64,000 nt of DNA, taken from Adineta ricciae. Its lineage: Eukaryota > Rotifera > Eurotatoria > Adinetida > Adinetidae. Positions 1,956-63,920 of the stretch are shown one piece after another. Both the position numbers and the translations under genes were made by a program. The stretch spans positions 930,001 to 994,000 of the forward strand of contig CAJNOJ010000007.1 of assembly GCA_905250025.1 (NCBI GenBank). Direction: 5' to 3'. Below the pieces are notes generated by a model, which was not told where the DNA came from, did not search any database, and saw only the letters and a program-made list of their open reading frames with translations. How positions within the stretch are numbered: position 1 is the stretch's first letter; each line of letters starts with the position of its first letter.

Positions 1956-12809
<10,854 letters not shown>

Positions 12810-45700: not shown

Positions 45701-48061
45701 CCACGTATATATATATACATATAAATTCATATAAATAAATCTCGCTGTATATAAATAAAGACGTACTAATTCATTTTTGATCAATTTTCATTCATCATAG
45801 AACGATCTTCTCGTACGCTCTAAAATCTAAACTAACAAAAAAAAAGAGAGAACGATGGAATATGAAAATAAGCTAACACTGACTTTTGAGTGTTCGTTCT
45901 GAAATTTATACTAACGTATGAAGTGTGAATGTATGCTCACACGCACATAGATTCACAATAGCATTTTTTGGCTCTTGCTCTCTCTCTCTCTCTTCTGTTT
46001 CTTCCTTTTTGCTGATTGAACGGGTATGTGCGTCAGAACGAGTAAAAAAACGATGACTTATTGCCTTCTTTTTTAGTTTTTTCCCCTCTCTGTTTCTCAT
46101 GCAGCATGTAACGAACTTAGTCTCATCCTACTGCTCCTTCTGCATCCTCTTTTTTCCTCCATCAACAGCGTCAATTCTTTTTCATTCAGACATTTCTGCT
46201 CAAGTATCTTCTCTAGGCATGTGTTGGTCATCGACAAGACAAAAAAGAAACGTTTTCTCAATCATGAAAATAAAAATAAATAATTCTTCTCCTCTCAGAA
46301 AGCCTCTCTTGGAAATCATAGATAACAAAATCGAGTTTTTCCTTCTCTTGATATCCTCCAGCGAAGTGCTGTGTCTTACTATCTGATGAATGACTTGTTT
46401 TGTCTTCGACAAATTGTTGTTGTTGTTGTTATTCTTATTACCCTTCATGGTTATATCCCGGAGTATCAAGAATGTACAGAAGAGAAACGAAGACAAATTC
46501 TTTGCAATATGGATCGATAATTACTTAGAAAAATATACAAAAATATAAATAAATAAATAAATCGACATTGAATGCTAATATGTGTGTTAATTCGTTGATG
46601 TTGTTGTTTGTTTCAGTGCTATCGAACTGATTCTATCGAAAATTCAAAATCGTCAATGGCTTGTCGATGAAAAGAAAGATGATGGATTTACAGCTTTGCA
46701 TTTAGCTGCACTTAATGATCATTGTCTTGTTGCGGAATTACTTTTGACTAAAGGAAATGCATCCATTAATGTACAAAACACAAGTTTACAAACTCCACTT
46801 CATCTTGCTGTCGGTCGACAACATATTCAGATAGTTAATGTACGAAAAAGAAAACTTCATCGAATGTTTCCATTTCAAGTCTCTACTCTTGTTCGTTCTT
46901 TTTTCGTTTCTCTTAGTTATTATGTAGTAAAAATGCCAATGTTAATCTCGTTGACAAAGATGGTGATACGTGCTTGCATGAAGCATTAAGACATCACACA
47001 TTATCGCAATTGAAGCAATTACAAGATGTGGGCGATAGTGGCAAAGTTAGTTTGGATTTGGAAAAAGCATGATGAGTATTTATTTGTTGTTTTAGACAAT
47101 GAACATATTCACGAATACAAACGGTTATGATAAACGGCCAAGTGTAGTCATTGCGTGTACATTAGTCAGCTCCGGTGCCGATTTATCGATGAGAAACAAG
47201 AAGAATCAAACACCATTCGATCTTTGCCCTGATCCACACCTTTGTCGACTTTTAACACAAAAGAATATGTAAATTCGATTGAAGGATTTCTTTCTCAATT
47301 TCAATCGGTTGTCTTCTTTCGTTTTAGAGAATACAAACAAGAACACAGTAAAAATCAGCCATTCTCTGATAATAGTAATTCAATTGAATGTCTTGTTTGT
47401 TCGGATAACAAACGAGACACGTTATTTCAACCATGTTCACATATTGTGACATGTCATTCGTGTGCAAGTCGAGTAAAAAAATGTCTTTTATGCAAAGAGA
47501 ATGTTCAAACGAGAATTAAAGTAAAAGAATGCTCTTCGATTTGATTGTTTCTTTCTTCAACGAATATTTTCATCTAGATCGAACAATGTAAAAATTGCTC
47601 GGAACGTAAAGCATCGGTGATGTTCAAACCATGTGGACATTTAATCGCTTGCGAAGGTAAAGATTTAGGTATGCATATTATTTGTTAGATTTTCGAATAT
47701 TCATACAATAGAGTGTGCTGCAATGATGCAAGTGTGTCTTGCATGTCGAATACCGATCGAATCAATTGTCCCGTTCAAAGATTTATGCTCAGAAAATAAT
47801 GAGAATCTTCTTTCGAAATCAGAATCGTTGAACACAACAGCAATACCTTCGAATAATGTGACTGATGCTGTTGCATTAGCACGGCTACAGCAGCAATTGC
47901 AAGAAATTCGCGAGCAAGTGCATTGTCCAATATGTATGGACCGTTTGAAGAACATGGTCTTTTTATGTGGCCATGGTATTTGTCAGAATTGTGGCGATCG
48001 TGTACAAGAATGTCCGATATGTCGAAAGCAAATCGAGAAATCGATCATTTTATATACATGA
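42723..48061 (+). CDS. MIB1: Mindbomb-1-like RING E3 ubiquitin ligase lacking the MIB/HERC2-ZZ N-terminus
   Basis: MIB1 ubiquitinates Notch ligands and triggers their endocytosis. The first MIB repeat reads [31 protein letters not shown] and [12 protein letters not shown]. The second reads [46 protein letters not shown] and [11 protein letters not shown]. Ankyrin repeats follow ([85 protein letters not shown]). Three RING fingers end the protein: [36 protein letters not shown] and [18 protein letters not shown]...[16 protein letters not shown]. Three RINGs indicate MIB1 and not MIB2. In known MIB1 about 400 residues (two MIB/HERC2 domains and a ZZ finger) precede the first MIB repeat; here the frame starts at ATG 42723. 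An acceptor-like CCAG at 42714-42717 leaves room for an unseen upstream exon. One intron is 2.2 kb. Confidence 0.88.
45040..45054. repeat. (TA)n microsatellite
   Basis: Short uninterrupted TA repeat within the long MIB intron. Confidence 0.75.
45202..45226. repeat. (TA)n/(TG)n microsatellite
   Basis: TA repeat passing into TG repeat within the long MIB intron. Confidence 0.7.
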
Positions 48062-48327: not shown

Positions 48328-48650
48328 TTAGGCTATGTACGCTTTGAACGATAGATGCTGTACCTCATTCGTTTCTGGTTGATGCGACTGAGTAGAATTC
48401 GGATTAAATTCATCTATACTAATACTGGATAAATCGTCCAAGATGATTTGGTCGAATAACTGTTCTGTTATGCCATCGGGATCACCTGATGGCAGTAACG
48501 GTAAATGATTAGACATATACAGTTCATCGGTCGGATGGTGATGTACAGTCGAAGTTGGCGGTTGTTGTTGTTGTTGTTGCAGAATTGGCGGCGGGGAAAA
48601 TTGTGCATGCATTGCTTCAGAATATGGAACTTGTGTTAGTTGTTGTTGTT

Positions 48651-48705
<55 letters not shown>

Positions 48706-51700
48706 CTGTTGCTGCTGGACCGGTGATGGAGGGAATTGCGTCTGTATCGAATAAGGATACTGGCCTAGCATTGGATGTTGTTGCTGTTGTGGAGGTATTG
48801 ATTGTGGAAACTGTGTGGGAGGTTGCATTGAGAAGTGTTGATATGAAGGATTCATAACTGGAAAGGTGGGATGCTGATAATTGGCTTGGGGTGGAAACTG
48901 TATTGGCATTGGTTGTTGTGTCTGATAGGGTGCTTGCATAGGAAGTGGAGTTTGGTGTCCTGCATTCATTGCCAGTGGAAAATTCTCACCAGCAAGTTTG
49001 CGTACAACCTGCTCGGCAATTTCAGGACGAGACATCAACTGTGCTATGATCGCTTCTGTGGTAATATTCACATATGTATCTTGTTGTGGAGTTGGTCGAT
49101 TCGACGCAGATAAGATACTCTGTGACAATGTGATAGTACGACTTGAATTCTCGCCACCAGCCACGGAATTATGATCACGAATACTACACGTATCGTGACT
49201 CTATGAAAACAAAATCCTAACTTATACTGTGTTCAAAGCAAAAAAGAAATACTACTCATACATTCTCAGCATCGTACATATTCGATAGCGTGGGCGACCA
49301 GGTTTCATACGAATCTACAAGATCGAAAGAAGATGAATAGTTATGCATTTATAATTGATTTACTTGGACTGAGTATCGAATTGGATTGCGAATATTGACC
49401 GTTTAGTTCTGAAATGTCGTCATCAGTGTTTCCATCATTTGCACTGAAGTATTTTACATGCGAATAAGCAATACAAATATTGATTAGACTTACTTTTCCA
49501 CCAGATCGGTCACTGGTTTGTATTTTTCGTCATCTTTGACCAATTTTTGCAATCGTTTATCTGCATTTCAAATATTCATATTCAATTATTTTGCTTTTTC
49601 ATCAATGCTTACCATAGTATTTCGTGAATTCATTAAATGATATGTAACTTCGACCGTTCGCTCGGTCATCAAAACTAGACAAGATACGTATTCGATTCGC
49701 ATTTTCGGTTTCAGATGTTGTCACGAATCTACTAATATCATTGGCCAATGTACCAGAATCGAATGTTCGGTTTTGTAATTTTTTTGTACGATCTAAACAA
49801 CAATAGACGTTTTTTCTTCCAAAAAATAGCGTACACATATAAGTAACGAACTAACCATTGTATATGTCGACACGAACAGCACAAGCAGCAAGTTTCACAG
49901 ATCGACCCGCTGTTGCCGATGATGCAATAGCATTATAATCAATTCGGATCGTATTAAAACGAAGCGCAATAACGGGCGAGCCGGAAACCGAGGATTGAAC
50001 GATTGCCTCAGCAGCTCGTTCACTATTACATATGCCAAGAAACAATCTAGAAGAAAATCAAATATACAAAATGGAAAGGATTCAAAATGCCAACCTACCC
50101 ATCAGCATGGAACATGGCAAGAATTGGGTGTTTAGCCATGAATTCCACTTGATACACAAAATTGACCAGAAAATCCTAAAAGGATCAGTACGGCAAGCGA
50201 TAAACAAAGAGAGCATGCGCATTCCAATCACATACCAAATAAATGTCTTCCAACGACTGAAAACTACTTCTCTGATCTAAACAACATTGAAATGTCGTAA
50301 TGAGCATTCTTCAACGAGACATTACTTTTTGCTCGCAAAAGTTCCTGTTCGAGATAGGTATTCACACAAAGGTTAGGCAAAACTCCTGTTCGATGTATGA
50401 AATACCGTTGCATAAAATATTGAATCGTTTCAACGTTGACAGGTTTAACCTAAATCATCCGAGAATAACTCATCGAAGAATACTATGATTTGTTTCAACA
50501 AACCGCGGAGAAACGCTTAATATCTTCGATTATAATTCGTGTTAACAATTGTGGAATTTGATTATTATGAGCGCCAATACCGAATACTAATGATTCCAAT
50601 GGAAATTGAAATGTCGGTGGTGTTTTACTATCGTTGATATTGAGCTAAAACATACTCAAATTCGAATAGTAATCGGAATGGTTTCGCAAGCGTTTTACTT
50701 GAAGTTTAATAGCAAATTTAAACGAATGAATTAATTGAGCAAAACGAACACGCGTATCAGATTTTGACGATTGTTCAATCGTTATACCAGTTAATTCCGC
50801 ACAAAGAAACGTACGGTATGTACCAGTTGCGCTTGTTTGTACTTGACAAGTTTTCCATGATAGTGAACGCGGTTCTTCTAATTTGTAATAATCCGACGAT
50901 GGACACAAGCTGGGTTCTAGACACAATTTCATTTCATTGAAAAACCATCATCTTCATCTCAAATCGATCATACCTATGTCGTATAGTTCGATTGTATCAG
51001 GATATAATTGCATGAAATCATTCAGCAAACAAATAATCATAACAGATATCTTTGCCGTATATTCTCCCGGACCTTTCCGTTCGTAGATTGTCACTGGATT
51101 CACACCCGAATGTGGTTGAGAAACGATCATAAATGAACTAGAAGGTAAGGCATACAAACATGATCCATTTCTTTGCTGAGAGTTGATTCCTAACCTACGA
51201 AATATCGCTTCAAATTCGCTATGTAACGGTTGAGACTGACGCAACTTCGGAGCCGACGTTGCTCTAACCATTAAAGATTTCAGATGTTCAGTCGTTCTAA
51301 ACATTCAGATGAAAGATTTTCGATAGAACCCGTCAAGAACCTACCGATTTTGTAAATAAACCAGATTTTTCGGATTGTTGACTTCAGCATCACTTTGATA
51401 GAACAATCGACGTATTTCTTGAGCATGTTTGCGTCCGTTAAACTCACGTTCTCGTGTGGCAAAGTCCTACAAATATGAGCCGAATTCGATTATATATATT
51501 GACGGTTAGGATCTATTTACATAGGAATGTGAAGACATAGTCTCATCAGCCATTCTATATTGCATTTCCAATCGAATATCCAAGACTAATCGGGCAAATT
51601 TAGCTTCGTTCTATTCGAAATATCAATCGTGTTAATAGTAAGAAGAAAACAAGGGTAGTCGAAGCTACTTCTTTGATATAATTAATTAATCGATTGAGCA

Positions 51701-52177
51701 TCAAACATTTCTCAATGGATGCATCGATTTCGGGTAGATTATCACGTTTATCCTGTAAGCTTCCAGCGAAATTGATCGGTTGTCTAGAGATGAGAAAAAG
51801 GCAGATTTATTCGTTTTACCGAACATGGAATCTACCCCGGTCGGTTTCGTTTGTCACCATCGTCAATAATATCCGCAAAATTGATATCACCAACTGATTT
51901 CCGAGTTAAAAATGACTGAATACCAATTGTTTTATCTGAATATTCATGTTTAGCCAGAAAATCGTAACAATCAAGAAGGCCAGTTAGTGTATTCTAAACA
52001 AATATCGTCAGATCTGCTATTTTCAACTGCAAATCGATGTAATATACCGATTGTGCCGACGCTATTGGTTGTTCTACAAGCAACAACGATATTCCCATGA
52101 TATTCAAGGCGAAAAAGCACTATAAAATACATACGCGCTGGTGCTGATCGTTTCTTCTTGGTAACACTCGAACTCAT
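48328..52177 (-). CDS. STAT: Divergent STAT-like transcription factor A with Gln-rich tail
   Basis: The start is MSSSVTKKKRSAPAQQP at 52177. Landmarks follow STAT order. Coiled-coil part: SIEKCLMLNRLINYI, ARLVLDIRLEMQYRM and REFNGRKHAQEIRRLF. DNA-binding core: SFMIVSQPHSGVNPVTIYER...YTAKISVMI (cf. STAT FVVERQP...PLVIKTG..FTTKVRLL), then GTYRTFLCAELTGITIEQ (cf. GSLSAEFKHLTLREQ) and PLESLVFGIGAHNNQIPQLL. Linker: SRWKTFIWDFLVNFVYQ. SH2: FLGICNSERAAEAIVQS...GSPVIALRFN, whose Arg (codon 49959-49961) fits the phosphotyrosine-binding Arg of LLRFS. After the SH2, DDEKYKPVTDLVEK offers a candidate phosphotyrosine (49520-49522). The tail (48328-49164) is Gln/Pro-rich, a likely activation domain, with 26 Gln in a row. 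A 55-nt intron (50645-50699) must be removed or a TAG interrupts the frame. The N-domain is short or absent. Family assignment is by motif reading only. Confidence 0.78.
48640..48717 (-). repeat. Poly-Gln tract (mixed CAG/CAA), 26 codons
   Basis: 26 consecutive CAG/CAA codons in the tail of STAT-like A, with shorter Gln runs on either side. The CAG/CAA interspersion argues for retention at protein level and not a pure microsatellite. Confidence 0.9.
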
Positions 52178-53193
52178 AATGATGAAGGGCAATTATAGAT
52201 CTAGAATATTACAATGCTACATTCGTTGCTCGAAATACATCTGAACAACTGTCGAGTGTTGACTTCTCGGAAACGTTTACTCTTCATCTCACTCTTCATT
52301 ACTGGAAACAATTGACAGAAATTCTGCTGACATACTTACCTGAACTAATAAAAGAAATCTTTCTCTTGGTTAGTATTTCGATAGCATTCAAACGGTCGAC
52401 CGGATTCTTTTTTATAATATGATGTGTAAATTTTCTCTTTATTCTCTCCCTGAAAGTTTCTTTCTTTTTTTCTGTTATATAACGACGAAGTGTGCAAGGC
52501 TGTATAGAGCAAATAAATACAATAAGAAAGAAAAATGTTTGAAAGAAGTATATTTGATGGAAGTACACGACACTTTTTCTCTTCTTTTAAATTCTGAAGA
52601 GAAAAAAAAAGAAACAGAATCAAAGCTCGTTTCAGCGATTCTAAAATAAATACGAAAAGAAAGCAGTCATTCTTTATAGTAACATTTCCAAGAAAAGTTA
52701 AATATGCAATGCTCTGGTGCAACACTTCAAAAGTTATGTTTTTCCCGGAATAACGTTGTATGACGCGTTTCTTCTGTCTTAGGTTCTACTCCGCGAAAAA
52801 CAAAGTCTTCATTAATGTTTTTCTGTACCACTCGTCTAGGGAGGGTGAATGTAATCTGAAAGTAAACTTTCTATTAGTAGAATGATGTCAACCGCACTTT
52901 TAAACTTTGTCAGTTCTGTCAGACTGAGGACGTTACAAATATTTCAGCGAATTCTGTACGCATTGTACTTTAAAAAATCTCGAGTGTTTGAGATACTTTC
53001 GTCGACTTTTTCTCATAAATCTTTCGTGAACTGATATTTTGGTGAAAATACTCGATAAAAATTTCCGACAACTGATCTATTCTCTTTTTATCCAATTTTA
53101 ATTCTAACAAGAGATTATCAACAGGAAAATGTAAACACTATTATGAAACAAAAGATACAATGATTTTGTATACATTAAATGCTAGGATAACGA
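52178..53193. other. Intergenic, promoter side of STAT-like A
   Basis: About 1 kb between the start of STAT-like A and the 3' end of the glycosyltransferase. It contains four TTCNNNGAA (STAT/GAS-type) sites at 52264, 52686, 52742 and 52943. No gene recognised. Confidence 0.5.
52742..52750. promoter_or_regulatory. Candidate STAT-binding site TTCCCGGAA
   Basis: A perfect palindromic GAS-type element about 570 bp upstream of the STAT-like A start codon. Related sites are TTCTCGGAA (52264-52272), TTCCAAGAA (52686-52694) and TTCAGCGAA (52943-52951). The motif is short and also occurs by chance in this AT-rich DNA. Confidence 0.3.
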
Positions 53194-54515
53194 CTAATTA
53201 TCATCCAGTGTAGTAGTTTTTGCTCTCCAACACCGATTTCTTTTGTTGTTTACACTTTTCATTCCATGTCTCGACTTGTTCAAGATCATTTCGCGCCAAT
53301 ATGCGATACGCAATTTTTCATATGCATATACACTTGGTGTTTGCGCTTTCTTTAGGGCAATATCGTACATGTTACTTCGAAGATATTCCTCATTCAATTG
53401 ACTCGTATCATTGATCACGAGTATAGGTAAATTTTCATACAAAGGATCGAGTGTTGAATGCCAGACGATTGGAATCACATCGAGATATAATGCTTCCCAT
53501 GTTCGATGGCAGTCGATACCACGTCCACGTGGCGAAAGCCAAAGTGGATATTGACGATTGCGTCGATAGATAGTCGGGAGACTTGAAACATTCACTCCAT
53601 CTTCTTTGTCGAAACACATCACAAATGAACTTTGATTGCCTTGACAGATTTCTTTCCATAGTTTGATTCGACCGCCGGTTGGATCAGTTTGAGGCCGAAA
53701 ATTGAGTAGAAGAATCTTATCGGATTCATTGATGTTCTTGTTGCTGAGAGTGGTGCTCAAAAGAACCGAACGCGTCACATCGACTGGTTGAATATAGTAA
53801 GATGGTTCATCAACGTTGTCTTCATTGACAGACGGGAGAAGCTGCTTGGGAGAATGTTGTTGAATATCTCGAATAGCGTCAGCCATTTCAAAACAATTTA
53901 TACCTAAGAAAATAGTCGGTTAGATTTTTTGTTCGAGTGATGATTTTCCAGCTAGAACTTACCGACTGGTATGTGGGTAAATCGTTCATTACTGGATGCA
54001 TCGATATCTCCGTTCTGAGCAAACCAATGAATAATTTTCGAATCGGAACGCGTAAGATATTGAATGGATTCGCCGGGAGTTTGTGTTCCTCCTTGTCCTG
54101 TCAACAAAACAAATCGATTCAACAGAATCGGATAGATTTCTGCGAAAAACGATGAAATTTGATCCGTTTTCACATAGATAATACTTCCTGTTGGAAGATT
54201 ACTTATAATTGAAGCGTCCCTTTCCAATAAGTTTTCCATTTCTTCGTTGAAGACTGATTCAGGCCAACCGTATACCCAGTCAGCAAGATTTCGAAAGTTT
54301 TGTGGACAGATAAATTCTGGGTAATGGTGAATATAGTATGATGCGTCGTCGAAAATGACATGATCACCGGTAATTTCAGCTGAGTAGGGACACGTTGGAA
54401 CGCTGCTCGTTTCTTCCAAATGTTCAGAACGAAAAAGTATAGTTGAACTTGAAATACATACCATAAAGATGAGTGTTACTAATCGACGACATTTACATCT
54501 ATATCTATAAAACAT
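53194..54515 (-). CDS. Exostosin-like (GT47-type) type II membrane glycosyltransferase
   Basis: About 415 residues in two exons. The start is MFYRYRCKCRRLVTLIFMV at 54515: a short basic cytosolic tail and one hydrophobic anchor (residues about 11-27), typical of Golgi type II enzymes. The luminal part has RFVLLTGQGGTQTPGE, KIIHWFAQNGDID, and THIPVGINCFEM across a 57-nt intron (about 53905-53961). LLLNFRPQTDPTGGR and SPRGRGIDCHRTWEALYLDVIPIVW follow; the latter resembles the exostosin-family nucleotide-sugar motif (SPRG...R.WE.L..G.IPI). The donor, acceptor and reaction cannot be inferred. It lies between two STAT-like paralogues on the same strand. Confidence 0.72.
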
Positions 54516-57090
54516 TTCTGAAAAACGATGAAGAAAAATGAGTGTTATACATGTGAGCGAAAGTCTATCGATAAATCTTTGGGAATAGGAAATACCAACT
54601 GTGTTCTGTTGTAACTTTGATTTTCAACAGTAAACCTCGCACAGAAATGCACTCAAAAACATAATAGCTTGTGACGACAATTTACCTTCATGTTTTAAAA
54701 CTCCGACTCAGGTGTCACACCTCATTTTTACGAGATAAAATCAATGTGGAAGAGAACATAACAAGTTTTCCAGCAGTTTTCATTTGGATCTTACATGTAC
54801 CCGATATTTACATAGTGTACATGCCAATTACTACCCATTACTAGTAGTCGACTGGTCAAACTCGAACAAGTCACATTCCTGATCGTGACAATGCATTTAA
54901 ACTCCAGCATTTTCTAACTATTCTTGTGCTACTGAATGAAGTTCAATCCCTTATGTATCGAAAAGCAGTATGTGACATTGTGCAAGTTCAGAAGAGTCAA
55001 GCAAATGTAAAATACTTCTGAACGGATAAGAAATATCATCTGCCAACGCATGCTCGCTTGCAAATAGCGAAGGCCTGAAACTATAATGCACGTCGACGAC
55101 GGCACATCGTTGTCATGGTTTTTGCATTGACGATACAAGTGAAACAATTTCATTTGGACCGTGTAATAACGTTTGCCATCGATAGGTAGACCTTTCTCAT
55201 ATAAATAATAATATCTAATGGAAAATTGGAAACATGACTTTTTTTAATGTTGGTTTCTGTGAAGATCTTTTTCGCATGCTATTTGTCCCTACTTCGGTGC
55301 ATTTTTTTGTACTTTGGTATTATCCTTCCTTCCTTTCTATCGAGAGAAGGGTATATAAACGTGTGTTCTGTATTAGAACGAGGCGATTGATGATAGGAAG
55401 AAATAAAGAAAGACATGCTGTCGTCGGGATACACATCTCTTCCATCAGAAATCGTCAGTTTCAATAATACTGTTTATTGAAATATTTCATGTTTTCGAGA
55501 TAGGATCTTGTGTCCTGTATGCAACATACTTTTTCATCAGGATGAAATACTGGAAAACTGAAGGCATCGATTAACAACAACAATAAGTCGATTTGTATAT
55601 CGAATTGTTTATGGCGATAAAGAACAAAATGCGTTCTGTTTTGAACAGATTCAATCAACATCAATTCTAACCAAGGGAAATGTTGTTTTCAGTTCTGCGT
55701 GACCTGTACCTTTTACTCCTTGAAAATGAAATAATGAGTTTACGACAATGACGAATCGCTGTCTGGACTCTAGCAATGAAAACAGCTAAAAAACCAACTA
55801 TCACTTCGAACGAATATTATCTTATGTTTTTCTGTTTAGCGTCTAATTGTCTTGTACTGAAACACCAGAAAATTTATATATATATTCTGTACAAGGAGCT
55901 AGTGTTTCAGTGTGGTACTCAAAGGGTTTTTCGAAAGAAAAATGTGTGTTCAAACATAATAGAAATTGACGCATCACGTGATTACCAGTTGGAATATATC
56001 TTCAGTTGATACTTCTGTTAAACGTATTATTGTACTATCTCGTTCTTGGTCTATTTCTTTGAGAAATGCAAATACAGATTTATTAATTTGATGCAGAAGT
56101 CTTCTTCGATATAATCTCATGGCATAGTTTATTTTTAGTTTCATCTGCGGCCTGTTCTTTACCGAGACGGGAGAAATTATTATTCTGCAAGTCAACAAAA
56201 ACATACGATGCAATTGCACCGGTAGTGCACAATTCAGTATCGTTCTTTTCTACTGAAAATGCATACACAGTTTACAGTTATAGTTTTCTCTTCTATACAG
56301 TAGGGAATCCAGTAGGAAAGTAGATGCATGTTCACAATCTTTCAACGCAAACTTCCCTATATCATTTGTTGGAGAAGTCTCAAGAACTTAAAATAATAGG
56401 AGATTTTCTGTTACGAGGTTTTCTATTTATTATTTTAAATATATAACAATGATATTTTGGTATAAAGTCTTATTCTACAATTTTCAACATGACGTAAATC
56501 ATCCCATTCATATGTGAATCTGAAAAGGAGTTATGAACTGTCAGTTGAATCAATTCCAGAACGATAATTAAGAAGAAGAATTTAATCGCTACGATTATTG
56601 TTGTTTTATAGGAGGAACGAGCAAACGTTTGATAACATAAGTGATAATAGTATGCAGCGGAGTTCTATTTGCAAGTAAGCAATGTTGCTTATTTTGAAAT
56701 GTTTATTCACGGATTATTGCCGGAGTCAGTACGACAAACTAACACTTCATTCTTTGTTTCTTTTTCTCTGAAAAAACTCTTTTTTTTAAATTATCTGCTA
56801 GATAGCAGATACTTTCGTCCTTTGACATCGAGTAAACAACGCGTTAACCTCCTTTCGTCTACCTTTTTATCGTACATCAAAGGTCAATAGTTGATAAGAC
56901 ATTCACTGATCCATTTGAAAACTATCCGCGAAAAAGAAGATGTTATATTTAACCCACTTCAATGATCACCGAAAGTTTATCAAGCATCAAACACTTAAAT
57001 TTATTTGTTTTATATACAATTTCTAATGTATTATAGCAAACAACTGATTTCATCAGTATACAATCAGATAAAGTTTAGTAAGTTTTGTTT
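54516..57090. other. Intergenic, 2.6 kb, mostly non-coding
   Basis: The longest gene-poor stretch outside introns. It is AT-rich. The only hint of coding is on the minus strand at 55974-56268, described separately. Small plus frames (55234-55467, 55776-56009, 56669-56890) have no similarity or splice support. Confidence 0.45.
55974..56268 (-). pseudogene. Possible degraded coding fragment, unidentified
   Basis: Two overlapping minus frames have protein-like composition. One (56083-56268) reads AFSVEKNDTELCTTGAIASY then VFVDLQNNNF. The other (55974-56219) reads LHQINKSVFAFLKEIDQERD then STIIRLTEVSTEDIFQL. A frame change between them would give one protein-like stretch. No family was recognised and no start or flanking exons were found, so this may be a relic or chance. 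Confidence 0.25.
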
Positions 57091-60000
57091 TTACGTTTTT
57101 GTTAGTGACGAACAGTAGAACGTGTACGATTTGGATTCATCTGGTCTGCTGTGAATTTGGGTAGAAGTTTGAATTTGAGAAATTTTTATTAGATACTTAT
57201 TTAATATACTTGATAAACACAATTTCCGTTGTGTAATGACAGCATTGCTTGTCCTTGTCGGATCGTTCGATTCAGCAGGCGGAAACATTTCAGGTAATTT
57301 CTCCAGAAGAACCTGAATTAATTTGTTCGTCTCAAAACTTATTTGCTCGCGAAAATTAGATGTTATGTCACTCGATAAATTGACTAAAAATAAACAGTCT
57401 GTGATAAAGATCAATAACAAGTCAGTGTGATTTTATTACCGCTTTGATTGGAAGAAGTTGAATTCGACTGAAAAACGAGAAGAAATTTGTGTTGATTATT
57501 TGTTGAATCAGAAAACTGAGAAATTTACTTGCGAGAAGTCATCTTGATGTGATGATGCCGATAGGACCGGTGATGTAGGTGCTAAAAAGATGGCGCATAG
57601 ATATTTTCGATGATTCTGTTTAGCAATTTTTACTTGTTCGTTGTGTTGATTGTTCGTTGTCGGTTGATCGCCTGAGCGCAAAGGAGATATCATTGAAAAG
57701 AGAAAACAAACGAATTTGATCTCACATTGTTGACCAAAGAACTGGTATCAATGGTTGGTATGTGTCTCTTGTTGGAGGGGCGACCGAACTCAGACGATAC
57801 AATTCTTGATCTGAATATAGAATTCATAAGGTATAGCTGATTGACTTCATAGCACACGATCACATACCAAAATATGAACTAAAATCAGCAAATCGCCGAT
57901 CTGGTATATTTGATAATATACGTGATCGTTTGGCTTTGTCTGAAATTGATTCACAGATCATTTGACACATATCATCCACAAACGCTTTTGAATGGAACGT
58001 TGCTTTGATCAGTTCGCCTAATTAGTATATAACAGAAAAATATTCAATGTGAAATCTTTCATTATGAATATCTACCATTGTGTACAAGATATCGAACAGA
58101 AGTTTGTTGTGTTAATAGACGATTAGTGAGTGTATTAAAACGTAGTAAGATATGTGGTTGTTCTCGAGTTCCACTCAATACTTGATCGATGGCGCTATCA
58201 CAAATGCCTAGAAAGAGACTGAATATACATCATATGATCGATCTTCGTTTGCCTAGTTTTAATTCGCGGATAATTACTGGTCATAGTACATCATCGATAG
58301 CACGGGATGATCTACATATTGTTCTAGTTGAGTGATTACTTTTGCTAAGATATCCTGAAAAATAGAAATTAAATCGAGATTTCAAACTAAGAAAATTCTC
58401 ACCTCATAAATGTCGTTCGATGTGACATTCATAATGTTCCTTTTCTCGTCTAAATTAGATGGCAACTATTCGATAATTACTGTGATTTCGTCTTGTACAA
58501 ACCGTAGATCGCTTGGCATTGTTGGAAAATAAAGCTTTTGGTATGAGGTTGTGGTTCCACCCCTGTGATACGTGTGTGATAATCACAAACACCATCAGTG
58601 ATGGTATGAGGTTGAATTAAGCGGTTAACCTAGAGTCGAGCGTCGAATTTTAGTTAAAAGTTTTGATGAATTCTCATACATGCTGGAATCTTTGTTCGAT
58701 TTCATAGATGAGCAATTTAGCAACATATTCCGGGAAATATTGAGCATGCGAACAGATGCCAAACGGTCGTGAGAAAAATGTGAGATTTTCTGTCATATCT
58801 AACTTGCTGATCTAATTAAGAATAATTTCAAAGAATTATATATCTGAATAGACAATTGAACAACTTACGGTGACGTTTAATTGGAATCGTAATCGGCAAA
58901 GTTTGGAATTATAGAATGGACGAGAACTTCGGCCATCAGTTTTAGTTAATCTTATCGTTTGAAGTTCGGCATAGTAGAACGACTTGGAATTACCGCTTGC
59001 ATCAAAGATTCGTTTTATTTTCCATTCAAGTGCTGTCTGAACTTCACCATCGTCATCAGTACGGCGATCGAATGAATAGATTGTTACACCTAACTTGCAT
59101 CTAGATTAATAGTAATCAAGAAAAACATCCGGCTTACCGATAGATGAGAAATTGAAATGACGACGAATGGTATCTACATCTAATAGGCAAAGTATACGTG
59201 TTGTCACTTTAGCAACATAATCGTCGTTGACTTTTTCGTATTTAGTGCTTGCAACACATTCGGGCGTGGATGGTTCGGCAACAATAACAAACAAACTATG
59301 TATCAATAAGAAAATCAATGTCGATGTTACATCTGTTACTATCTTACTGTTGTAGAAGTTCTTTTATTTGATTTAGTTGCTCAGACGATATACATTCCCG
59401 ACAAATATCACCAGAATCCAGCAATTGAGAACACAGTTGCGTGACGCTTTGTTGTAAACTCAATAGTGTGTGTGATTGTCTAATTTTATTTTCCTTTATG
59501 TAAAATAATCGCTGTTGGTACAGTAGATTTCTATACGCTCGAACTTCACTATATAAATCCTCTGCTGTCTACAAACATTCAATGTATACCCGTCGGAAGT
59601 TTCGAGAAGTTTCCTTTCGATCGTACTGTATAAGGTATCGTTGTACTTGTCATGCGAATTTTGAGCTGTTCGTACAAGTTCGTCAAATGCTGAGTAAATT
59701 CTGCAGGATTCTTCAATGTATTCGCATTGGATATCTTCAGTATGATTATCTATGTGTTTCAGATTTTACCTTTGTATACTCTGCGATCAATCGATTGAAC
59801 ATCAAACATTTCTCAATCGAATTGATATTCGGTTTTAAATTTCTTCGTTCGCGAACCAGTAGATCCATCCAATTATATTTTAAACTAAGATTATACACAT
59901 GTCATAAGATATTCTGGCAAATGTATGTCACATACCTTCTTTGATAAAGATCTGAATACGAAATACTAATCAACTTTTTCTTGATTAAACAAAAGAATAA

Positions 60001-60218
60001 GCCTACAGCATGTTGACATATCTCATTAGGAGCTAGAAAGTCAAAATAATCAGCTAGATCTCTAATTGATTCATTATTAAGTTGTTTGCATTGTCCATTG
60101 TCTTCCATTAGATCTGAAACTATTTCAAACACTAATGTAGAGTGTAATGTAACTGTGAATCGTTCTAAATACCTTTTCTTTTGTTTGTTTGCCGTGTCAC
60201 TTTGCCATGTTCAGACAT
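57091..60218 (-). CDS. STAT: Divergent STAT-like transcription factor B, paralogue of A
   Basis: The start is MSEHGKVTRQTNKRK at 60218. Exons spliced at 45-70 nt introns align block by block with STAT-like A. LADYFDFLAPNEICQHAVGL corresponds to A's LLDCYDFLAKHEYSDKTIGI. SIEKCLMFNRLI differs from A by one residue. The coiled coil has YSEVRAYRNLLYQQRLFY. The DNA-binding core has SLFVIVAEPSTPECV...YVAKVTTRILCLL, NSKSFYYAELQTIRLTK and FFSRPFGICSHAQYFPEYVAKLL. The linker/SH2 has DILAKVITQLEQYVDHPVLSM and GICDSAIDQVLSGTREQ, then PHILLRFNTLTNR with the SH2 Arg at 58140-58142. After the SH2, PPTRDTYQPLIPVL offers a candidate phosphotyrosine (57758-57760). The tail is Ser-rich, without the long Gln run of A, and ends SYTFYCSSLTKT at 57091. 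It likely binds DNA after Tyr phosphorylation; this is inferred from family. Confidence 0.75.
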
Positions 60219-60886: not shown

Positions 60887-63202
60887 TTAAACATTGTTCA
60901 TCGCCATTTGTGGCTTCTTTTTTGAGACGGTATTTTTCAAGCCGTTTACACCATTTGTACCATTCAAACTTATCTTTCCAATATCATTCGCTAGTAAATC
61001 ATTGTCATTATAAGTTTCATCACTTGCAAGTAAGTCTGTTTCTTCTTGTTTGCCAAATATCTGCGTAAATAATGCATCAAAACGCGAAATCAACGCTGCA
61101 CCTAAGCATATGTACTGCATGGAATTTGCCAGTGCCACACGTTTAACAGATATCGACCACGTGTTCATTTCGATGCCGAAATTTTCCGAACCGATCAGCC
61201 ACTTATCATCTTCCCAATCGATATAGACGATTTCTTCTTGAACTTGACCATTCGGTTGAAAACGGTATAAACTAAACTGATAATGTTGATCGGATGCTGA
61301 CTCTTCCAATGACGCCGTGAAAAGATCTTTAGTAAACTTGACAATTCCCCAATCACCAGTATGATCTTTCACAATCAATGCTTCTTCTAGATCAGGATCC
61401 AGTGTTACAACCGATTTATCCGGATTACTCGAAACTTGATTTGGTAATGGGAGTTGCGACCAATTCAACGTATGACACGATGCGAATATAGCACTGTTAA
61501 ATGTTGCTGTAAATATGTCGATGTCATTGATGATTGTATGACGGATATTGAGTAAAGTTGGCTGTTCTTGATGAACAGGAAGAATACTGTGCAGTGCCTG
61601 TCGAACTTTCACATTTTCCAAATTAAATAAGAATGATGTGCCCAATTGGGTCAAATAATTTTGTCCAAGTGTTACATCTTCATAATCGACTGCTTCATAT
61701 CGAACGATAACAGTATTGATATCGATAGCTGGAATACCAACAGCAAGTCTAGAAAGAAAAAGAAATAAAGACTGAATGCACGATTCTCATAGGAAAAAAA
61801 CTGAATCATACCGCCGTGCTTTGGGTACTATTCTTGATATAGGAGAACTATGATCGATCGGCTTGTTGAGTAAATAATACAGTGCACCTGCTTCATCATT
61901 TCCATCTGCAGCTAAGCCAGATTTAACGGGTTGAGTAAAATGAGTAATTGGATGAAGTTTTTCAGCGGAGATTTCATGTTCTTCCAATGAACTGAAATAG
62001 TTCATTGGCCAATAGCCAGCCTTTTGTTGAAGCTTAAGCACCAGTTGCGCTGTTAAATCATTAAAATCAGCCTCAAAGTGAGCTTCAATATACCCTGATG
62101 AACCTCGCGCAAAAAGTTCTTGATCTGATGAATTAATTTGAGCAAACAATTGTTCCGGTAGTGGTTCAGCGCCTGGCAGATGATCATCCAACGAAAGAAC
62201 TGTCGTTGCCCTATTATCTGTAGTTTTTCCTGTTGCACCGATGGCCGTCGAGTTCTGATCGAGAAATTGAACAAAAATAGCGTAACGTTGACATTCAAGT
62301 AGAAAAGTAAAATCCGCCACATATTGATAAAAATCCTTCGATGTTTTCCCTCGATACATAGAACCATTTTTCGGTAAGCGATCACCATATAGTTCGAACC
62401 ATTTATGTCGAGTTTCGTGATCTGATGTTGATAATTTCGAATTGGCTGAGCGATCTTGTGTTGTATCATCATGATGAAGAACATGTTGAAGATTAGTAAT
62501 CATATCGCGACGATAAACTTCAGGAAATAATTGATGCGTGTGCCAAACGATATCGATATCATACATGGGCACAACATACAATTGAGGATTCAGACGTTTG
62601 AGATAAATGAATTTTTTGTAGCGTTTGATTGCTTCTTCGAGAAAATCAGAATCCTTATAGTGACCGAGGGCTACTGCATAATAGAAATCTGCTTGTCTCT
62701 CCATTGCTTGACTTAAAGCATATTTGATTTTACTTGTATAAGGTGGAATAACTTGAATATTCGTTGAATAATCAAGTTCAAACGGCATGGTACGATTGAA
62801 CTTCTTTGTCCATAACTGTTCACTGAATTTCAGCAATTGTTCGGTACGTGGTCGGACGCGATTCGGTAAAACTCGTTCGAACAAACGTTCGCAATCACTG
62901 GCATACGCTGTTGGTGCAAGCATATGTGAATGCCATACAAAGAGTATATCGAGTGGTGGAATAATATCCAATTCACCATGTTCAGCTAAAAATGGCAACC
63001 AGAATGTTTCATAGCGATAGATCGCATACTCGCGTGATTGTTTTTGAAGGAATTCTGGATGATCATAGAATTCTTTTAGATAAGCCAAATGGTCGAGAAT
63101 AGCCGGTTTAAGATTTTCGCTAATAACGATTTGAGATGGATGACTGATGGATGGATTAAATGGCGATTGAGCTGCAATTGGTGAAGTTGGTGTCGATGTC
63201 AT
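60887..63202 (-). CDS. Glycine-rich domain-containing (GRDP / DUF1399-like) protein
   Basis: Two exons, about 750 residues. The start is MTSTPTSPIAAQSPFNPS at 63202; one intron lies at about 61750-61812. The N-terminal half carries the tandem family signature: YETFWLPFLAEHG then PPLDILFVWHSHMLAPTAY with DCERLF, and a second copy KRYKKFIYLKRLNPQLYVVP then MYDIDIVWHTHQLFPEVYRRD. The paired W-H-x-H motifs are typical of glycine-rich domain-containing proteins (Pfam GRDP-like), found in plants, fungi and some invertebrates. Their biochemical role is poorly known; plant members respond to osmotic stress. The C-terminal half has no recognised domain, is soluble in character and ends KKKPQMAMNNV at 60887. 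No signal peptide. Confidence 0.82.
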
Positions 63203-63920
63203 GGTTAGCTTAGTTAGTGAGCGAAAGAAAAGTAAAAAAAACGAAGAAATATACGCGTTTATACAAGAGTATTCAAGGAAGAAAGCGAACGAACAAACGT
63301 TAGATAGTTACGCCTGATTAAACATAATCAACGAGCATAACTTACTAGATGAGTAGGATAGGACGTAATTTATCTACAGAAAATATCAGGCTTTTTCTCG
63401 AAGGAGACATGACATACGGAAGAAAGTTTATTATTAGTTTTTCATGAAATTCTGATTTCTACTATTTCAAAACGCTTCCGTATTGTAGATATAAAAATTC
63501 AGGTGCAAAATGTGAGAAGAACGAGGCCTTTGTATGAAAAATTATTCTCGCAATCATCCGGTGACATCTATGCTACTTTGACTTCTATTCTGTTATTTTT
63601 GGCTTTTGTACCAATAATACACGTTCAATTGCAAATTATCTGTGATAATATGTCTGCATCATTGCCGACAATTCATTTGTATTCCACTCGAATTATTTCT
63701 ATTTTTATCATGTCGACTAGATCTCGGTGCACAGTTCAGTGAGTATGATTATTTCAAACATCATGTGGCGATGACTTCTCGAATTTGTACTTTCCTATTG
63801 AAGCAGAGACGTAGCTGTTCATTCGCTCCCTACTCTACTTTTTTAAAAGCTGATTCTCATTGTGCAAATTCCCTTTTTAGTCGTTGTAAACAGCTTATTT
63901 CTTCTTTCTCAAACACGTTT
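63203..63920. other. Intergenic between divergent GRDP-like and GH13 genes
   Basis: About 720 bp, AT-rich. A plus frame at 63503-63742 has hydrophobic stretches but no similarity and was not accepted. Presumably a shared promoter region. Confidence 0.45.

Follow-up and report, generated by a model that had tools for sequence, protein, structure and literature searches.

Which family do two linked and strongly diverged genes of the rotifer Adineta ricciae belong to? The genes, A and B, lie in a 64,000-nucleotide stretch of contig C7 (C7:930001-994000, hereafter the window) whose many exons and short introns mark it as eukaryotic. The original prediction, made from the letters alone, read them as a diverged pair of STAT genes. 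In many animals, transcription is coupled to tyrosine-kinase signaling through STATs. These latent transcription factors combine an immunoglobulin-like DNA-binding domain with a helical region before it, a linker and an SH2 domain after it, and a tyrosine in the tail. We conclude, as far as the sequences allow, that A and B probably represent one class each of a STAT subfamily that has diverged strongly.

We spliced both genes by hand (Table 1). They lie on the minus strand where they had been placed, with the start codon of B at 60218 and the final base of the A stop codon at 48328. All introns are GT-AG and 41 to 63 bp long. Exons 16 to 18 of A were placed mostly from splice signals and the open frame, and exons 15 to 18 of B from these only. 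By blastp, the two proteins are 27% identical over 611 columns (E=4e-43). In the part that can be aligned, 13 introns in succession agree in phase (2,0,0,2,1,0,0,1,0,2,1,1,2), an agreement that is partly circular because in places one gene guided the choice of splice sites in the other. When protein A was the sole query, a spliced aligner recovered 10 of B exons 2 to 14 exactly at both ends and the remaining 3 with one exact end, and it added one spurious 11-base exon. The pairing of A and B as paralogs is thus confirmed and is not a chance resemblance. Most of the sequence blocks said to be shared are indeed present (SIEKCLM[LF]NRLI, F[MV]IV...Y[TV]AK[IV], AEL, FGI[GC][AS]H, and [AL]LRFN), but the linker block is looser than described: QLE...HPVL in B fits the pattern, whereas QVE...HPIL in A fits it only loosely.

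Table 1. Features of genes A and B, with positions counted from the first letter of the window
Feature	Position	Strand	Basis or remarks
Gene A	52177..48328	minus	18 exons, 973 aa; spliced by hand; homologous to B
Gene A, exons 1-9	52177-52135, 52073-52048, 51993-51836, 51783-51669, 51610-51521, 51466-51345, 51296-50974, 50916-50699, 50644-50504	minus	
Gene A, exons 10-18	50449-50326, 50276-50236, 50175-50099, 50046-49856, 49792-49613, 49560-49494, 49443-49364, 49314-49262, 49200-48328	minus	
A, end of helical region and putative STAT-type DNA-binding domain (PSSSFMIVSQP ... FGIGAHNNQIPQLLTRIIIEDIKRFSA)	50504..51296	minus	family profile against STAT
A, putative SH2, two exons	49613..50046	minus	arginine codon 49961-49959; SH2-tail profile against STAT
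A, candidate phospho-tyrosine codon in EKYKPVTDLV	49520..49522	minus	family Y-x-P
A, 290-aa Q- and P-rich tail encoded by the last exon, possible activation domain	48328..49200	minus	sequence itself
Gene B	60218..57091	minus	18 exons, 737 aa; spliced by hand; checked with A as query
Gene B, exons 1-9	60218-60173, 60131-59936, 59884-59770, 59710-59627, 59568-59348, 59295-59138, 59089-58869, 58811-58680, 58629-58503	minus	
Gene B, exons 10-18	58449-58403, 58354-58278, 58218-58076, 58017-57868, 57810-57726, 57671-57634, 57581-57529, 57467-57440, 57383-57091	minus	
B, putative STAT-type DNA-binding domain (HLFVIVAEP ... FGICSHAQYFPEYVAKLLIYEIEQRFQH)	58680..59295	minus	family alignment and profile
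B, putative SH2, two exons	57868..58218	minus	arginine codon 58142-58140; family alignment and profile
B, candidate phospho-tyrosine codon in DTYQPLIPVLW	57758..57760	minus	family Y-x-P

The neighboring sequence holds other open frames. Between A and B, two long frames on the minus strand (53194-54623), perhaps one intron-split gene, resembled a glycosyltransferase by eye only, and a Pfam search (E up to 0.01) assigned them to no family. A minus-strand frame at 61787-63307 has a GRDP-like domain (PF07173, E=2.9e-35). On the plus strand, 46591-48061 encodes ankyrin repeats (46591-46989) and a RING finger (47669-48061), which may form a single gene converging on gene A.

Across the assembly (130.5 Mb in 1033 contigs), matches to a 601-aa query from B and a 687-aa query from A fell on contigs C7, C8, and C77 only. 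Spliced models on C8 and on C77 each comprise three B-like genes (g1, g2, and g3) and two A-like genes (a1 and a2), all on the minus strand and arranged as g3, g2, g1, a2, a1. A and B bring the family to 12 copies, of which these two five-gene arrays hold ten; the count is a lower bound because the genome search scores the best candidates only. Corresponding C8 and C77 copies share 89 to 94% protein identity with dS values of 0.13 to 0.18, and dN/dS is 0.28 for g1, 0.35 for g2, 0.22 for g3, 0.19 for a1, and 0.30 for a2, indicating purifying selection on the ten copies, taken as five pairs. No relative was detected by tblastn among 34 pattern matches on viral contigs and 64 on prokaryotic ones.

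The two arrays (about 114-134 kb on C8 and about 268-288 kb on C77) are collinear and the C7 locus is far more distant, an arrangement that suggests homologous copies together with an old duplicate. Bdelloid rotifers are degenerate tetraploids, a condition that two near copies and one distant locus would fit. A TGTGGG repeat was set aside as a bdelloid mark, since its backward control has the identical sequence. In the tree, which carries a long-branch warning for A, B, and others, A groups with the a1 pair (96/93) and B with the g1 pair (84/89), and a2, g2, and g3 fall outside. The tandem duplications therefore look older than the split of the C7 locus from the C8 and C77 arrays, so that the window would hold two of five ancestral genes, one per class. 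A tblastn search of the window for relics of a2, g2, and g3 (E up to 0.01) matched the A and B genes only. The subfamily expansion that had been proposed is thus real in this genome, with 12 copies found, but the tree does not place it as an event at the window locus.

Simple annotation was expected to miss these genes, and standard profile searches do miss them. Pfam scans with HMMER covered A and B, sets of 6 and 4 members, 12 trimmed members, and 5 of those again. They returned no STAT model for the DNA-binding-to-tail part in any of the 12 members or in the repeated five, and none for longer models including N-terminal parts in 8 of the 12 (A being given as 821 of its 973 aa). HMMER searches of 177635 PDB sequences with A, with B, and with profiles of 2, 6, and 12 members found no STAT either. 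The same library does contain STATs, since a STAT1 fragment used as a control query found 21 sequences, all labelled STAT. A STAT profile compared with the DNA of A and B scored 41.0 and 44.3, a margin too close to count over three control stretches (32.6-39.9), and in B the alignment was misplaced.

Comparison of profiles with profiles, which had been proposed as a check, probably does connect the family with STATs. Using hhalign, we aligned the 12-member family profile with four mammalian STATs (STAT1, STAT3, STAT5A, and STAT6) over 269 collinear columns (score 30.5, E=0.008). None of 100 column shuffles reached this score (maximum, 23.3) and reversed controls scored 14.3 and 14.7, but hhalign's own probability for the alignment is only 4.8-6.6%. 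With 8 members against STAT1, STAT5A, and STAT6, the score was 24.0 (E=0.057, 271 columns); none of 60 column shuffles matched it (maximum, 21.8), but shuffling in blocks of 15 columns, which preserves local motifs, did so in at least 5 of 60 runs. The increase from 24.0 to 30.5 came with the family (8 to 12 members) and the STATs (three to four) enlarged together.

Divided by domain, this weak similarity is specific. The DNA-binding part scored 26.8 against its STAT counterpart (E=0.0015, 76 columns; 0 of 100 shuffles as high, Gumbel fit 1.9e-4), and the SH2-tail part scored 23.3 (E=0.0041; 0 of 100 shuffles, Gumbel fit 3.8e-4) over 37 columns that span the first part of the domain only, with 8 of the 12 rows kept by hhalign. 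Six cross-domain controls scored 13.6 or less. The linker showed no similarity (score 8.6, with 72 of 100 shuffles as high), although a stretch at the right position between the DNA-binding part and the SH2 exists. About 130 aa before the DNA-binding part occupy the position of a putative coiled coil. Profiles and alignment support the predicted STAT domain order for the putative DNA-binding part, the putative SH2, and the tyrosine, but the linker adds no support.

How much of the signal is carried by individual sequences also matters to its reading. A-type rows alone (n=5) scored 22.0, which 2 of 50 shuffles reached, and B-type rows (n=7) scored 24.3, reached by 1 of 50; both types fall in a common register on STAT and share the same SH2 end columns. 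Single paralogs scored 15.3 to 21.7 against STAT. Among single STATs compared with the family, STAT1 (37.5, E=0.0006) stands out, but STAT5A (19.8), STAT3 (19.3), and STAT6 (14.6) do not exceed the maximum of 20.8 from 12 decoy open reading frames of the window (13 were found, and one belonging to gene A was omitted). The signal thus draws mainly on STAT1 and the pooled profile. Overall, we regard the profile evidence for STAT as good but not decisive.

Two residues expected of a STAT are largely kept. The arginine of the LRF-like SH2 motif is present in 12/12 paralogs in the 12-row alignment, and a Y-x-P motif follows the SH2 in 10 of the 12, at 17 residues from the F..Y[YF] end of the domain in B, g1, and g3 and at 13 in A, a1, and a2. 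The 12 sequences offer a natural set for learning which STAT residues must stay. Inspection of the g2 reading frames showed the tail motif missing from the corresponding place in both g2 genes; the tyrosine aligned in the C8 g2 row would make an eleventh member, but it comes from a doubtful last exon. The g2 pair (L010, about 4300-4850; L012, about 4200-4720), lacking the tail Y-x-P, also has a long tree branch (1.59) and possibly has a changed function. Downstream of the C8 a1 model lies an open frame of 139 aa containing Q.

The STAT identity of the family is likely, since profiles recover two domains in the right order, the SH2 arginine is invariant, and the tail tyrosine is conserved. It is not proven, because the linker shows no similarity, the A-type and B-type subgroups lie at the edge of the shuffles, and the one predicted fold is of low confidence. 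On this last point, the AlphaFold check proposed with the original prediction did not help: one contiguous piece of the A SH2, read through a 63-base intron, was modeled with a mean pLDDT of 36.5, and we discarded the model as evidence.

The failure of every HMMER search to recover a STAT family and the lack of STAT similarity in the linker would also fit a lineage-specific family whose SH2-like domain is not of STAT descent, for instance an adaptor that joins an SH2 to N-terminal domains of its own and would bind phospho-tyrosine but not DNA. We consider such an adaptor improbable. The DNA-binding part by itself matches STAT DNA-binding domains, in the right order, and a conserved tyrosine follows the SH2. 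The SH2 part scored only 12.8 against three ordinary SH2s, compared with 23.3 against STAT, and the STAT profile itself scored 34.7 against those three. The genome has 78 matches to Pfam SH2 (PF00017) with E no higher than 0.01, all of them outside the A and B genes and the C8 and C77 arrays, and protein scans of the family members with Pfam detected no ordinary SH2.

An unrelated fold, with the STAT similarity due to chance or shared secondary structure, would find a hint in Pfam matches below cutoff. RA_2 (PF21989) matched 2 of 12 members (best E=0.0004; C77_g3 at 20.9 bits versus a cutoff of 27). A GAIN subdomain (PF22261) matched 2 of 6 members (best E=0.001; C77_g1 at 18.3 bits versus 21.7) and 2 of the 12 trimmed members (best E=0.072). 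Both cover part of the SH2 region, and neither appears in the full-length models of C8_g3, C8_a1, and C8_a2; with two members each and scores below cutoff, we rejected these identities. Against the collinear alignment to STATs, with domains matching along its length, an unrelated fold seems very improbable.

Under the preferred reading, that of a diverged STAT subfamily, A and B most likely act as a STAT-like switch. Once a tyrosine kinase had phosphorylated the Y-x-P tyrosine in the tail, two molecules would dimerize, the SH2 arginine of each gripping the phospho-tyrosine of its partner. The dimer would then bind DNA, and the Q- and P-rich tail of A would activate transcription.

Does this genome also encode a conventional STAT? 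Exon-by-exon genome searches revealed no canonical STAT at the exon level. PF21354 and PF02865 had no match in these searches, though for PF21354 silence is not absence. The one genome match to STAT_bind (PF02864), below cutoff, was a Q-rich stretch on C325 and was rejected. STAT_alpha (PF01017) had four genome matches, all below cutoff; the best two regions (C169 and C207), compared on both strands with the STAT and family profiles, scored 30-39, no higher than the STAT profile on the three control stretches (32.6-39.9), and were likewise set aside. A STAT5A query matched weakly at two places (E=0.11 and 0.18), the sites of the two best ordinary SH2 matches, and FERM_F2, used as a mark of JAK, had no genome match and was uninformative because controls were equally silent. 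We tentatively raise the possibility, which we hold to be rather doubtful, that there is no canonical STAT and that all STAT work is done by this two-class family of linked neighbors on one strand, A having the Q/P-rich activation tail and B lacking it, with A-B heterodimers possible and with evolution so rapid that little trace of homology is left. If this were true, reported absences of STAT elsewhere, for example in flatworms, could be detection failures.

The full-text literature matches listed included no title describing rotifer STAT genes. In the retrieved text of a rotifer dormancy paper, the JAK-STAT pathway appears among enrichment terms (PMC10821554), and a word search of the retrieved text of a bdelloid transcriptome paper found neither STAT nor JAK (PMC12220480). 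In the relevant passages of a metazoan pathway survey, STAT is undetected in Platyhelminthes and Nematoda and rotifers are unmentioned (PMC13203501). With a family as diverged as this one, STAT absences elsewhere may be failures of sequence search.

Divergent STATs have been described in other organisms, and we compared them with the family by description, from the passages that treat them. Caenorhabditis elegans has two known STATs without a JAK homolog, of which STA-2 is reported to have diverged further and to have no tyrosine motif (PMC5587905), resembling the g2 pair in this last respect. The two nematode genes are recognized as STATs, whereas Pfam misses the 12 or more copies here, of which ten lie in arrays. 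The STATs of Dictyostelium and Acanthamoeba are, like the A/B family, noncanonical with a conserved tail tyrosine, but the Acanthamoeba protein has domain-search E-values of 2.5e-6 and 6.8e-21, whereas the A/B family gives none (PMC4206453). Compared with metazoan STATs, the family has no recognizable STAT_int or linker, its helical region looks shorter by eye, and identity to STAT1 is 16% in the aligned part, below detection by Pfam and PDB sequence searches. As in STAT1, STAT3, STAT5A, and STAT6, the family has a DNA-binding part, here putative, ahead of a putative SH2 whose arginine lies in an L-R-F-like motif. Beyond the F..Y[YF] that closes the SH2 comes a tyrosine, after 13 or 17 residues in the family and after 19 in STAT1 (HAFGKYY ... 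GTGYIKTEL).
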